A stretch of 64,000 bases of DNA from Treponema sp. CETP13 (GTDB taxonomy: Bacteria > Spirochaetota > Spirochaetia > Treponematales > Treponemataceae): assembly GCA_001885315.1 (NCBI GenBank), contig MLPZ01000004.1, forward strand, positions 62,001 to 126,000, read 5' to 3'. This document shows positions 4,045-9,626 of the stretch, in pieces. Position 1 is the stretch's first letter; each line of letters begins with the position of its first letter. A program made the translations under genes and the position numbers. The notes beneath the pieces were generated by a model. The model saw only the letters and a list, made by a program, of their open reading frames with translations, made no database searches and was not told where the DNA came from.

Positions 4045-4893
4045 TTAGCTTAAAGTGTTGTTTTTAGGTTGAAAGATAAATAAAAGTAAAGCAACGAGAT
4101 ATGGAATAGAAAGTAGCAAGGTCGGTGATATATGCAGTATATTTGTTCCTTGAATAGCGGTTGTTCCATAGTCGACAATAGCAAATATTACCAAAACGAT
4201 AACAGTTCCCCATCCTTTTTTTCTACCTATAAAAATTGCAGCAAGCGCTATCCAACCTCTCCCAGAAGAAATGTTTGGTACAAAAGCAGATAAGCGAAAG
4301 GCGTATAAACAACCAGCAAATGCTGAAAAAATGGCTGCAATTGTCCATGTTGTTAATTTATATGTTGTTATATTTAGACCGCGAGCTTCTAGTAGTTCTG
4401 GATTGCTTCCGGTAATTCTAATATGTCTTCCCCATGTAGTTTTTTGTAAAAGAAAAAGAATTGTAATAGAAATAATCCATGCAAATAAAGAGAGAGGAAC
4501 TTTGCTTATCATTAGTGTGTTTGAAGTGAATATATCTTTTGCAGGTTCTGATATAACACTCGTAGTATTAAAAAATTGTTGTGAAAAGTAGGAGATTATA
4601 CCTGTAGTAAGAAAGTTAATTCCTAAACCTGTCAAAAATGGATTAGCATTAAAGTGAATGGTGAACAAGCAACACAAAAAAATGAATATCGCACAAATTG
4701 TTATAGATAAAAGTGTTCCTAAGAGTGTAGAGCCTGTTAAAATTGACAGTGTAATACATAAAAAAGCCCCTAAATTAATGATTCCATCAATAAATACAGC
4801 GAGTGTTCCTGTGTATTCAGTAATGAGTGCACTTGTTCCTAGAAGTATTAGAGGTGCGGCAGTAATAATAATCAAGTTGATAAATAGATTCAC
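4045..4893 (-). CDS. Nucleoside ABC transporter permease (BMP type), second subunit
   Basis: An inner-membrane permease of the BPD_transp_2/LivH-like family. It has 282 mostly hydrophobic residues with about eight predicted TM segments. The conserved stretches include GLGINFLTTG and the EARGLN loop near residue 170 (SNPELLEARGLN), thought to contact the ATPase. It starts with GTG, overlapping the upstream permease stop as GTGA, with GAGG about nine bases upstream. Translation is therefore coupled. Together with the paralogous permease, dual ATPase and BMP binding protein it forms a nucleoside importer like Pnr of T. pallidum or Nup of Gram-positives. Purine nucleoside specificity is inference. 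Confidence 0.88.
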   Translation of the reverse strand: MNLFINLIIITAAPLILLGTSALITEYTGTLAVFIDGIINLGAFLCITLSILTGSTLLGTLLSITICAIFIFLCCLFTIHFNANPFLTGLGINFLTTGIISYFSQQFFNTTSVISEPAKDIFTSNTLMISKVPLSLFAWIISITILFLLQKTTWGRHIRITGSNPELLEARGLNITTYKLTTWTIAAIFSAFAGCLYAFRLSAFVPNISSGRGWIALAAIFIGRKKGWGTVIVLVIFAIVDYGTTAIQGTNILHISPTLLLSIPYLVALLLFIFQPKNNTLS

Positions 4894-5831
4894 GTTTTAA
4901 TCCTCACTTGGCGTTTTACAATGTGCATGGACACTATAAACAAAATTATGCCTTGAATAAGTGCTTCAAAATTAAACGACATTCCAGTTGTAAGCATAAC
5001 AGCGTCAGAAGATGTGTAAATAAAAGCTAATAAAAGAGAAACTGGTATTGCAAGCAAAGGATTTGAATGAACTATAAGTGCTGCACTAAGAGCATTCCAT
5101 CCTAAACCAACATAGAAATCTTGATAACATGAGTAGTATGTTCCAATAACGGCTATAAAACCTGTAAAGGCATGTAGGGCTCCAGAAATTGCCATTCCTG
5201 TATATGAGGATGCTTTTACGTTCAGGCCTGCAGCAAACGCAAATTCAGGTGCACGTCCACAAATTCGAAATTGTAAGCCTTTCCTTGTTTTATATAAAAT
5301 AAATGCTATTAATATGGTAACTATAATGGATATATATAAACTGGTGTTTAAATCAGAAACAGAAAGTAAATGAGATAATTTTACTTTATCTGAAATTTCA
5401 GGAGTTGCAAGCAAATTTTGACTCGAATCACGAAAAGGCCCAGTAACAGCATAATTAAGAATGGGAATTATTGCGGCTGAAAATAAAAAGGTTGTAATCA
5501 TTTCATTTATATTATGCCATTGCTTAAGTATTGCAGCTAATAAAGGAACCAATGCCCCTACAAATAAAACAATAAATAAAACACATATCACAATTAATAA
5601 GATAATAAAGCTAGAAGATTGAGTAGATTGAGGATGTAAAAAATAATTAAAACTTATGGCTGTTATAAAACCTCCTAGATATATCTGACTTTCTCCTCCT
5701 AAGTTCATATTTCCAGATTGTAGTGCTATTGAGGCTCCCAATGTTGCGATGGTTATAAGTGTTGCTGTATTTAGCCATGAACCAAACCAATAGGTAGAAG
5801 AAAATACAGCTGTAAAAAAAGTAGCAATCAT
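4890..5831 (-). CDS. Nucleoside ABC transporter permease (BMP type), first subunit
   Basis: The 313-residue partner permease. TM segments cover most of the chain. An N-terminal NLGGESQIYLGG segment is typical of the YufP/NupP side of the family, and RAPEFAFAAGLN near residue 190 is the coupling loop. Its ATG overlaps the ATPase stop by four bases (ATGA), and its own stop overlaps the next GTG, so three proteins are made from one tightly coupled message. Substrate by analogy: nucleosides. Confidence 0.88.
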   Translation of the reverse strand: MIATFFTAVFSSTYWFGSWLNTATLITIATLGASIALQSGNMNLGGESQIYLGGFITAISFNYFLHPQSTQSSSFIILLIVICVLFIVLFVGALVPLLAAILKQWHNINEMITTFLFSAAIIPILNYAVTGPFRDSSQNLLATPEISDKVKLSHLLSVSDLNTSLYISIIVTILIAFILYKTRKGLQFRICGRAPEFAFAAGLNVKASSYTGMAISGALHAFTGFIAVIGTYYSCYQDFYVGLGWNALSAALIVHSNPLLAIPVSLLLAFIYTSSDAVMLTTGMSFNFEALIQGIILFIVSMHIVKRQVRIKT

Positions 5832-7189
5832 ATTAGCTTCTCTGTTTTATGAACGATATGCCCGCTGTTTAATATATAAGTGTTTGATGCAATATGTGAT
5901 AAAATTGAGTTGCTATTTGTGAGAACTAATACGGCAGTTCCTGAATTTGCAACGTTTTGTATAAGGAGAGTAAACTCTTTTGCAGATTTTGTATCCATTC
6001 CTCTAGTAGGGTTGCAAAGAATAAATAATCGAGGATGTGTTTCTAATTCTCTAAAAGCTATTAATCGTTGTAACATTCCACCAGAAAGATATGAAACCTT
6101 ATCGTCTAAATGTATCGAAATCCCAGCTTTTGCTACTATTGATTTGGCGTATTCTTTTTGCCGTTTAATACTACCTTTATAGTGAACAGTAAGCATTTCT
6201 TCAATTGTCAATGTTGGATGACTGCCTCGAAAATTACGATCAAATGGAATAATTGCTGTACCATTATCACGAAGCAAACGTGGTGAAATATGTTTTATTT
6301 TTGTTCCAAAAAGAAAAAAGCTTCCTGTGTCTATTTCTTTAGATGAAATACCTGTGATAATATCTTCGAGAGTTTCCAGCCCACTTTCTCTTTGTCCTGT
6401 AATTGCTGTAACCATACCTGTTTTTACGATAAATGAACTATCAAAAAGAGCAGGTCGGTCTATTGGACGAGCCGTTAAGTGTTCGACTCTAAACGCTTCG
6501 TTTTTGTCTATATCACTATTTGTATTTGCAGATAAGTGAACGCTATCAGTCTCTGGATATTCGATAAAATGAGTTACTTCGTGAATTTTACCATTTTGTA
6601 ATTCTATAACAATTTCTGCAATTCTTAAAGCTTCAAGACGGTCGTGAGAAATAATAAGAATCCCGATATTGCTTAAAAGAAGCTTATGCAAATACGAATA
6701 TAATTTATTTCGTTGTTTGATATCCAAAGACGATGCTGGCTCATCTAAAATAATGAATTGCGGATGTGTTATTAAACAAGCCGCAAACGCAGTAAAAAAA
6801 CGTTCAGAAGCGGTGAGCTTTGAAACTTTTTTATGCAATGGGATTGGATAAATTAAAAAATCTTGATGGAATTCTTCTTTTTCATGTCCAAGCATAATGT
6901 TTTCTTTAACTGTAAGTTCATTTGCTAAAAGAGGCCTTTGTTGCACTGTTTGAATTTGAAATTTTTGAGAATCAGCAGGTTTTTCAAAAAGGACGCGGTT
7001 TCCATTTATAAAAATAGTACCAGAAGAAGGTCTAATAAATCCACTTAAAATATTTGACAATGTAGATTTCCCTGCTCCATTCTCTCCAAGTAAAGCATAA
7101 AATTTTCCTGTTTGAAATGTATATGAAATATCATCGAGTACTTTTTTTTGAGGAAATTTTTTTACTATATGAGAAATATCGATTTTCAT
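5828..7189 (-). CDS. Dual-domain ABC ATPase of nucleoside importer, asymmetric sites
   Basis: Two nucleotide-binding domains in one 453-residue chain, shorter than the usual 500 or so of this family. Domain 1 has an intact Walker A (GENGAGKS, 35-42), Walker B (FIILDE, 145-150) and H-loop His182, but its signature loop is degenerate (LTASE, 125-129). Domain 2 is the reverse: signature LSGGM (368-372) is intact, while Walker A (GQRESGLE, 265-272) lacks the Lys, Walker B reads LFILCN and the H-loop has TNSN. In the closed dimer this leaves one complete site (Walker A/B of domain 1 with LSGGM of domain 2) and one dead site. It follows the BMP gene after 21 bases. Confidence 0.93.
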   Translation of the reverse strand: MKIDISHIVKKFPQKKVLDDISYTFQTGKFYALLGENGAGKSTLSNILSGFIRPSSGTIFINGNRVLFEKPADSQKFQIQTVQQRPLLANELTVKENIMLGHEKEEFHQDFLIYPIPLHKKVSKLTASERFFTAFAACLITHPQFIILDEPASSLDIKQRNKLYSYLHKLLLSNIGILIISHDRLEALRIAEIVIELQNGKIHEVTHFIEYPETDSVHLSANTNSDIDKNEAFRVEHLTARPIDRPALFDSSFIVKTGMVTAITGQRESGLETLEDIITGISSKEIDTGSFFLFGTKIKHISPRLLRDNGTAIIPFDRNFRGSHPTLTIEEMLTVHYKGSIKRQKEYAKSIVAKAGISIHLDDKVSYLSGGMLQRLIAFRELETHPRLFILCNPTRGMDTKSAKEFTLLIQNVANSGTAVLVLTNSNSILSHIASNTYILNSGHIVHKTEKLI

Positions 7190-7210: not shown

Positions 7211-8257
7211 TTAGTTTGTTTGTTCAAGGACAAGAGTACCAGATTTAATATTTTCATAAACATCTGTCATTTTTTTACGAATTGATTCTGGAACAGTTTT
7301 TATGAAAAGGGGATCATCTAATATAAATTGGACATATCCATCTTTAATTCCCACCGTTTTTGCGCTTCCAAATTTTGTTTTTCCTTCTAAAAAAAGCTTT
7401 GTTTGTTCATAAGCCATTTTTTCTTGAGACATTACAGAACTCGAAACTATGTATCCAGGAGCTTTATTAAAACCATTATCATCAAACCATGTAATATAAA
7501 AGCCATATTGTTTCGCCGCACTAATAATACCTTGAGAAGCTCCGCCAGCAATTGGTAAAATTACATCGACTCCACTGTCATATAACGATTTAGCGATTTC
7601 TGCTCCCTTTGTTGCATCGTACCAGTTTCCGACAATACGAAATTCAACAGAAATATCTGGATTTACGGCTTGAGCGCCTTCAATAAATCCTGGAAGAATA
7701 ATAGTATTCATTACTGGATATTCTTGAGCTGCAACAAGTGCAATTTTTAAATCTTTATTTGCATACAAAAGAGAAGAATCTGTGGTCACAAGCCCTGCAG
7801 AGTAACCTGCGAGATATGCTTGTTCACGCTGATTATATTGAATTGTTGCAATATTAGGATTCCCACTTTCGTAAGCATCTAAAAAAATAAACTTTTGGTC
7901 TGGAAAATCTTTTAAAATTGGTTTTGCAAAATCAGGCATAGATGGGTTTGAACTTATAATAACATCATATTTTTGTTGTGCTACTAAGGCAGTAAGTTTT
8001 TTGCCCCATTCAGCTTGATTTGATTGTGCTTCGAAAATTGAGAGATTAATTTTATTAGTTGTTTTTGGATTACTGTTGTATTCGTTTACTGCTTTTGTAA
8101 CTCCATCATTGAGCATCTGGTACACGGGGCTCCCAGATAATTCACCTGGTATAAATAAAGCAATATTTTTACCTGAATTTTCTTTTGAGCCATTTGAGAA
8201 AACTGTAAAAGTTATGGTGTAAAACACAATTAATAGTAAAATAAATTTTTTGTACAT
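7211..8257 (-). CDS. BMP-family nucleoside-binding protein (PnrA-like)
   Basis: The extracytoplasmic substrate-binding protein of the importer, 348 residues. An N-terminal signal segment of about 21 residues is followed by FSNGSKENSGK. The BMP fold is recognisable from the IALFIPGELSGSP start, the IISSNPSMPDFAKP region and VDVILPIAGGASQGI. Treponemal relatives are usually lipoproteins. Here no Cys follows the hydrophobic stretch, so the protein is more likely cleaved by signal peptidase I or held by an uncleaved anchor. A GAGG Shine-Dalgarno precedes the ATG. It is the first gene behind the promoter with two MarR-type operators. Confidence 0.9.
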   Translation of the reverse strand: MYKKFILLLIVFYTITFTVFSNGSKENSGKNIALFIPGELSGSPVYQMLNDGVTKAVNEYNSNPKTTNKINLSIFEAQSNQAEWGKKLTALVAQQKYDVIISSNPSMPDFAKPILKDFPDQKFIFLDAYESGNPNIATIQYNQREQAYLAGYSAGLVTTDSSLLYANKDLKIALVAAQEYPVMNTIILPGFIEGAQAVNPDISVEFRIVGNWYDATKGAEIAKSLYDSGVDVILPIAGGASQGIISAAKQYGFYITWFDDNGFNKAPGYIVSSSVMSQEKMAYEQTKLFLEGKTKFGSAKTVGIKDGYVQFILDDPLFIKTVPESIRKKMTDVYENIKSGTLVLEQTN

Positions 8258-8279: not shown

Positions 8280-8335
8280 GTTTGATATCAAACATTGATG
8301 TATATAAACATAGTTTGATATCAAACTTTTGTCAA
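8280..8335 (-). promoter_or_regulatory. Importer promoter with two identical MarR-type operators
   Basis: On the minus strand TTGACA (8335-8330), 17 bp and TATGTT (8312-8307) make a promoter for the BMP gene. A perfect 14-bp palindrome GTTTGATATCAAAC occupies 8313-8326, exactly within the spacer. A second identical copy lies at 8280-8293, just downstream of the expected start point. The copies are 33 bp apart, three helical turns. The adjacent MarR-family gene is the obvious regulator, and both positions predict repression. The linkage of protein to site is inference. Confidence 0.75.
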
Positions 8336-8362: not shown

Positions 8363-8800
8363 TTAGGAATTTTTGAAGTTTTCTTCTAATTTTAAGAGAA
8401 GGGTATATAATTCAGTTTTCTCTGAATCTGAAAAATTTTTATATGCTGTATTAATAAGCTCTTTTGAAATATCTGCTGTTGTCGCGGTCAGTTTTAATCC
8501 TGCGGGTGTAAGCATAATGTAACGCACTCGGCTATCACTTTTACATGTTACTTTTCGTAAAAAGCCTCCTTGTTCTAGTTTTTTGATAAGTGCAGTTGTA
8601 GTTGATTTGTCTCGATTTATGAGTTTTGAGATTTCTCCCATCGTTAATTTCTTATGTAGAGTAAGAAGATGCAAAATAAAGCCATGCGAAGAAACAATTC
8701 CGGAAATTCCTTGCTTTTCTAACTTATTTTTTAAATAGACAGAAGTTAATGAATCTATACGAGAGATGAGTGAAATTACCTGATTACGATTATCTGTCAT
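8363..8800 (-). CDS. MarR-family transcriptional regulator
   Basis: A 145-residue winged-helix regulator that probably represses the adjacent nucleoside importer. The HTH lies around LTMGEISKLINRDKSTTTAL, followed by the wing SDSRVRYIMLTPAGL; flanking helices form the dimer interface. The ATG at 8800 is preferred to an in-frame ATG at 8830 or GTG at 8836. Family homology starts about there, and an extended -10 (TGATATACT, 8816-8808) ends seven bases before it. There is no Shine-Dalgarno, so the mRNA may be leaderless. The stop is 105 bases from the BMP gene, and that gap holds the operator pair. Confidence 0.9.
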   Translation of the reverse strand: MTDNRNQVISLISRIDSLTSVYLKNKLEKQGISGIVSSHGFILHLLTLHKKLTMGEISKLINRDKSTTTALIKKLEQGGFLRKVTCKSDSRVRYIMLTPAGLKLTATTADISKELINTAYKNFSDSEKTELYTLLLKLEENFKNS

Positions 8801-8837
8801 ACTTGCAAGTATATCATTTTTTAGATACATTATCACT
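8801..8837. promoter_or_regulatory. Overlapping divergent promoters of marR and the YesL-like gene
   Basis: Rightward: TTGCAA (8803-8808), 17 bp, TACATT (8826-8831), then six bases to the ATG at 8838. Leftward: extended -10 TGATATACT (8816-8808), then seven bases to the ATG at 8800. The 10-bp palindrome ACTTGCAAGT (8801-8810) covers both the rightward -35 and the leftward start. Both mRNAs would lack a leader. Competition between the two polymerases is likely, as the elements overlap. Confidence 0.5.
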
Positions 8838-9626
8838 ATGATAGGTTTTTTCTTTAAAAAAAATTTTTATGATGGATGGGATAATCTTGTTTGGATCGTT
8901 GTGTTTAATTTAATTATTCTTGCAATAAGTGCTGCTGGTTTATACTTATTACAATCTGTTTTTACTACAATAACGATTATTGCGGTACCAATATTTATAC
9001 TTTTTGTTTGTTTAGATTTTATTATGCTCTTTGCTGTTAGTGAAGGATGCGCAAACTTAGTAGATTATAAATCGTCACCGTATAGAGAAACTTTTTCATA
9101 TATAAAGGATGTTTGGAAAATTGCAACTTTGTTTGGTTTGTTAATAAGTATTGTGATAATTTTAGTTGCATTGGGTATTCCTTTTTATCTTAGTTATGGG
9201 AATTTTGTAGGTCTTTCTTTAGCTTTTTTCATATTTTGGGCTGCATTAGTAATTGTGCTAGCTTTGCAATGGTTTTTGCCATTATATTCTCAACTTCACG
9301 GTGGTTTTCTAAAGACGCTAAAAAAATCATTTATCTTGCTCTTTGATAATACAGGCTTTTCACTTCTTCTTTTTTTCTATTCTATTTTTATGATGATTTT
9401 TTCAGTTATACTTATATTTGTAGTTCCTGGGACTGTAGGCATTTGCATGGCTCAAAACAACGCGTTAAAGTTGCGAATGAAAAAATATGATTGGTTAGAG
9501 GCTCATCCAGAAATAATACCAAGCACTGTTCGTAAACAAATTCCATGGGAAGAAATCCTTGACGAAGATAAAGAAATTGTCGGAAATCGTACATTAAAGA
9601 ATTTAATATTTCCTTGGAAAGATTAG
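8838..9626 (+). CDS. YesL/DUF624-like membrane protein
   Basis: An integral membrane protein of 262 residues with about five or six TM helices (around 18-38, 46-68, 92-115, 120-150 and 170-200). It has a short charged C-terminal tail ending in EEILDEDKEIVGNRTLKNL. The N-terminal FKKNFYDGWDNLVW motif resembles the YesL/DUF624 family, often found beside sugar transport genes; biochemical function is unknown. It is divergent from marR, with start codons 37 bases apart and no Shine-Dalgarno. A terminator follows directly, so it is a single-gene unit. Confidence 0.7.
   Translation: MIGFFFKKNFYDGWDNLVWIVVFNLIILAISAAGLYLLQSVFTTITIIAVPIFILFVCLDFIMLFAVSEGCANLVDYKSSPYRETFSYIKDVWKIATLFGLLISIVIILVALGIPFYLSYGNFVGLSLAFFIFWAALVIVLALQWFLPLYSQLHGGFLKTLKKSFILLFDNTGFSLLLFFYSIFMMIFSVILIFVVPGTVGICMAQNNALKLRMKKYDWLEAHPEIIPSTVRKQIPWEEILDEDKEIVGNRTLKNLIFPWKD

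Follow-up and report, generated by a model that had tools for sequence, protein, structure and literature searches.

Bacterial riboflavin genes are known mainly as targets of the FMN riboswitch. Among the archaea, the transcription factor RbkR, which reportedly goes back to work by Rodionova in 2017, is said to be dedicated to riboflavin supply and to be fused to riboflavin kinase. Within the MarR family, most characterised proteins release DNA upon ligand binding, and the co-repressor mode, for which AdcR and FabT provide precedents, is less common. The RfuABCD operon for riboflavin uptake has been described in T. denticola and S. smaragdinae, and riboflavin binding has been demonstrated for T. 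pallidum RfuA (PMC4418817). The rfu operon of S. smaragdinae sits behind an FMN riboswitch (PMC4418817), and both RfuABCD and this riboswitch have been described before (PMC4418817, PMC3766115). A survey based on known vitamin regulons lists the riboswitch alone for vitamin B2 (PMC6593275). No description of a MarR-type riboflavin repressor was found in a search of mostly open-access literature. Here we analyse a locus of Treponema sp. CETP13 in a window of 64,000 nucleotides (the whole stretch of DNA under study, to which the coordinates below refer) where a MarR-type repressor very likely binds a pair of palindromes and so turns off a riboflavin importer.

The importer operon

The operon lies on the reverse strand and begins with rfuA (7211..8257, -), encoding the riboflavin-binding protein of an ABC importer from the Bmp/PnrA superfamily (Pfam Bmp; match to PDB 4iil), followed by rfuB (5828..7189, -), a duplicated ABC ATPase with two stretches matching Pfam ABC_tran, and by the permease genes rfuC (4890..5831, -) and rfuD (4045..4893, -), both matching Pfam BPD_transp_2. 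The order of binding protein, ATPase and two permeases is that of RfuABCD and is kept in relatives. The initial annotation had taken the operon for a BMP/Pnr-type nucleoside importer and had suggested a nucleoside or nucleobase as the possible ligand of the circuit, an assignment that had to be given up. The closest solved relative of the protein encoded at 7211-8257 is not PnrA/TmpC (2fqw), as expected for a PnrABCDE system, but T. pallidum RfuA/TpN38b (4iil), to which it is clearly orthologous; the E-values are 3.8e-103 for RfuA and 1.1e-18 for PnrA, the next best match, a gap of about 84 orders of magnitude. A separate Bmp protein, closest to PnrA, is encoded elsewhere in the same genome (G000:C2). 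Because of the RfuA match, the RfuABCD gene order and this second, PnrA-like protein, the nucleoside importer was rejected, and the operon is, as judged by homology, an RfuABCD transporter that would bind and take up riboflavin.

Paired palindromes in the rfuA promoter

Ahead of rfuA, the palindrome GTTTGATATCAAAC occurs exactly at 8280-8293 and at 8313-8326, with the two centres 33 bp apart. The outer copy forms the centre of a longer perfect palindrome of 16 bp, AGTTTGATATCAAACT, which is conserved in relatives and constitutes the predicted operator O1 (8312..8327); its 14-bp core lies inside the 17-bp promoter spacer between a -35 element, TTGACA (8330..8335, -), and a -10 element, TATGTT (8307..8312, -), in a register that recurs in 31 sites of the family. 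The identical 14-bp palindrome at 8280..8293, predicted operator O2, is located downstream of the predicted start point, at about +7 to +20, and ahead of the rfuA ATG at 8257. A MarR-family gene, which we name rfuR, lies immediately upstream of rfuA in the same direction (8363..8800, -). The initial annotation had proposed this layout, with two identical 14-bp palindromes, one filling the spacer and the other 33 bp downstream past the start point, and an adjacent MarR gene, and the layout is borne out in each of these elements.

Neither the RF00050 aptamer nor any other Rfam riboswitch was found in the window, the rfuA leader included, and a riboswitch in that leader was therefore rejected. 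Whereas the S. smaragdinae rfu operon stands behind an FMN riboswitch, a predicted MarR operator takes that place here.

When the 2.54-Mb genome of Treponema sp. CETP13 (21 contigs) was searched, GTTTGATATCAAAC was found in two exact copies, both at the rfuA promoter, and the reversed control pattern in none. When one mismatch to the site consensus of the relatives, AGTTTKATATMAAACT, was allowed, five places were retrieved, compared to zero for the control: three are intergenic and all on riboflavin supply genes (two at rfuA and one beside the FMN riboswitch of ribDEBAH), and two are within coding sequences. The scattering of many copies through coding regions, which the initial annotation had named as evidence against its proposal, was thus not encountered. 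Matches with three mismatches occur in the window at about chance level. The start region of the MarR gene itself carries no site in the genome scan (at most one mismatch to AGTTTKATATMAAACT), and autoregulation in Treponema sp. CETP13 was rejected on that ground; a wider regulon in this organism was likewise rejected, as the remaining one-mismatch sites are all inside coding sequences.

The MarR-family regulator

RfuR comprises 145 amino acids, counted from the ATG at 8800, and matches the Pfam MarR domain (PF01047, 2.4e-10). Its AlphaFold model (pLDDT 88.6) resembles MexR, MepR and FabT with Z-scores of about 17 (17.4 for MexR/MepR; 16.8 for the FabT-DNA complex, 6jbx), and both the Pfam match and the fold match indicate a MarR winged-helix domain. 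Within the protein, conservation is highest in the recognition helix (0.78 versus 0.58 overall), and the locus has an arrangement typical of MarR repressors, with a palindrome that overlaps the promoter of the target and lies beside the gene for the regulator. Compared with named NCBIfam regulators, RfuR falls under the cut-off for every one: the closest curated model is that of the bilirubin regulator BilQ (48.8 bits, cut-off 125), and the scores are 25.5 bits for the FabT equivalog (cut-off 200) and 25 bits for AdcR (cut-off 175). FabT and AdcR/ZitR, local MarR repressors with co-repressor logic, have in common with RfuR the winged-helix fold and a palindromic operator that overlaps the promoter, and the half-site TTTGA is one that we take to resemble the FabT site; however, their targets are fatty acid or zinc genes, and those predicted for RfuR are riboflavin genes. 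With RbkR, RfuR would share the dedication to riboflavin supply but not the architecture, one being a fusion and the other a single-domain MarR protein.

A -10-like box, TATACT (8808..8813, -), is located 7 bp before the MarR ATG, leaving no room for a ribosome-binding site between the two (8798-8813, -), and similar boxes stand just ahead of the ATG in orthologs, which suggests that the MarR mRNA is leaderless and that this feature is conserved across the family. Divergently oriented from the MarR gene is a gene for a 262-residue membrane protein (8838-9626, +) without a Pfam or NCBIfam match, which adjoins RfuR-type MarR genes in most relatives, in a strictly divergent position in 51 of 80 loci, and stays beside the MarR gene even where rfuA is elsewhere.

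Conservation of the site and of its association with MarR

A MarR gene directly ahead of rfuA, with a palindrome of the same type between them, is found in relatives from several genera. Eighty named loci with the MarR gene were collected, all titled as Treponema or another spirochaete (among them T. lecithinolyticum, T. bryantii, T. socranskii and many metagenome genomes); rfuA is adjacent to the MarR gene in 54 of the 80, and 42 of these 54 gaps contain the site. Thirty-one sites occupy an identical register in promoters of the TTGACA-17-TATAWT type, and in some relatives there is another site at a distance of 21-35 bp. The commonest form is the asymmetric AGTTTGATATAAAACT type (30 of 64 sites), for which reason the two half-site variants are taken as interchangeable; an early impression of strict compensatory change within the palindrome was dropped, and true covariation is not claimed. 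The site is present in 112 of 245 genomes of the family, in most of them once, and the control in few.

Co-occurrence was assessed in the upstream regions of 88 family genomes with a completeness of 90% or more, a site being called at 15 or 16 matches of 16 and the reversed motif serving as control. The site precedes rfuA in 37 of 46 genomes with MarR versus 1 of 19 without it (Fisher 1.5e-8), and ribD in 15 of 23 versus 0 of 15 (Fisher 3e-5), values that ignore phylogeny and overstate independence because the genomes are related; at the same threshold the control motif was found zero times in all four groups. Sites and MarR occur together in genera g1, g2, g4, g5, g9, g10, g12 and g14, and both are absent from g15 and g20. 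A few genomes (G030, G063, G073 and G094) have the MarR gene without a clear site; in G073, the promoter of the MarR ortholog itself, which is 33% identical, contains the perfect 16-mer (L054).

In one genome, G003 (99% complete), the rfuA promoter contains the site AGTTTGATATAAAACT (G003:C16:117996-118011) and no MarR ortholog was found. In genus g3, palindromes of the same type (GTTTTATATAAAAC; L021:2361-2394 and L126:3809) have only distantly related MarR genes nearby, so that the motif is not unique to the RfuR subfamily, and this operator type may be common to related MarR groups that have other targets.

Riboflavin synthesis genes and the FMN riboswitch

The same site precedes ribD or ribE in many relatives, the gene families having been confirmed, and FMN riboswitches were detected in 47 of the 245 family genomes. 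Among 38 ribD operons, 14 adjoin an FMN riboswitch and only one of these has the site, compared to 14 of the 24 operons that have no adjoining riboswitch (Fisher 0.002); on ribD, site and riboswitch thus largely replace each other in the relatives. The single operon of this set with both is ribDEBAH of Treponema sp. CETP13, which has an FMN riboswitch (RF00050, 110.5 bits; G000:C10:71806-71980, equivalent to L124:7807-7981) as well as a site with one mismatch, AATTTGATATAAAACT, located 43 bp upstream of the aptamer. This weaker site, whose placement relative to the local promoter is uncertain, may provide a further level of control.

The genes covered by the MarR-type site, those of riboflavin import and synthesis, are the ones that make up the FMN riboswitch regulon (RF00050), but the riboswitch is RNA control and the RfuR system is, by prediction, a protein acting on DNA; in many relatives the MarR site lies on ribD or rfuA where an FMN riboswitch was not found. 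In G005, G024 and G118, FMN riboswitches lie on a different contig from ribD, and their targets may be further riboflavin genes or transporters not yet known. In G019, a reduced genome of 1.1 Mb, rfuA is present and neither MarR, site nor riboswitch was detected, which suggests that riboflavin uptake is unregulated there.

Proposed mechanism and alternative explanations

The circuit of repressor, site and importer that the initial annotation had predicted is strongly supported by gene order, the site, its register and the co-occurrence with MarR in relatives. In its most plausible form, a dimer of RfuR would bind within the promoter spacer of rfuABCD at AGTTTGATATCAAACT, as well as at the second copy just past the start point, and would block RNA polymerase and thereby turn the riboflavin importer off. 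A 17-bp spacer is optimal for sigma-70, and a protein bound within it should therefore repress. With about three helical turns between them, the two operators could each accommodate a dimer on the same face of the DNA. The expected ligand is a flavin (FMN, FAD or riboflavin), given the orthology to RfuA, the separate PnrA-like protein and the same site on riboflavin synthesis genes; since uptake and synthesis of a vitamin should be repressed when its supply is ample, the flavin is expected to raise operator binding, which would make it, most probably, a co-repressor, with the importer produced only under flavin shortage. In relatives that lack an FMN riboswitch on those genes, the same repressor would control ribD or ribE directly. 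We regard this account, with import repressed by RfuR, flavin as the probable co-repressor, and ribD or ribE as further targets in relatives, as likely. Its observed parts are the sites, the promoter register, their conservation, the identity of the target by homology and the co-occurrence with MarR; DNA binding, repression and the ligand are inferred from them. The need for a co-repressor counts against it, given the ligand-release mode usual among MarR proteins.

In one alternative, the repressor of the rfu and rib genes would respond not to a flavin but to some different signal, for instance redox state, heme, a quinone or an intermediate of the pathway that acts as inducer. Sensing of redox state or of aromatic ligands is common among MarR proteins, and the curated model closest to RfuR, even if far under its cut-off, is BilQ; however, the intergenic sites of Treponema sp. 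CETP13 are all on riboflavin supply genes, and the extent to which site and FMN riboswitch substitute for one another on ribD argues for a flavin, so that we consider a different signal rather unlikely. It is still less probable that the palindromes are operators of another transcription factor and the MarR gene a bystander: although G003 has the site without a detected MarR ortholog and palindromes of this type are found near other MarR genes, the site tracks this MarR across genera, the MarR gene is often adjacent, and a distant ortholog has a perfect site in its own promoter.

It is highly improbable that the MarR protein represses nucleoside import, with nucleosides or bases as inducers. 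RfuA and PnrA do both belong to the Bmp family, but the E-value gap in favour of RfuA and the PnrA relative elsewhere in the genome speak against this explanation, as does the occurrence of the site at ribD and ribE of relatives. Chance palindromes in AT-rich DNA, to which the frequency of three-mismatch matches in the window might point, can be practically dismissed: conservation already refutes them, the exact sites number two against zero for the control, the site recurs across the family genomes where the control is rare, and in the upstream regions of the relatives the site is seen and the control is not.

Implications

For the family as a whole, we lean slightly toward a scenario in which control of rfuABCD and ribDEBAH passed, across much of the Treponemataceae, to a flavin-sensing MarR repressor with flavin as co-repressor, which either replaced the FMN riboswitch or works alongside it. 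If RfuR acts as proposed, riboflavin supply would have its own dedicated transcription factor in bacteria, a MarR repressor whose site is clear, whose regulon is small and whose target is a transporter of an experimentally known class; within a single family, a protein would then have taken the place of a riboswitch as regulator. Riboflavin genes in treponemes can also be found directly by means of the site.
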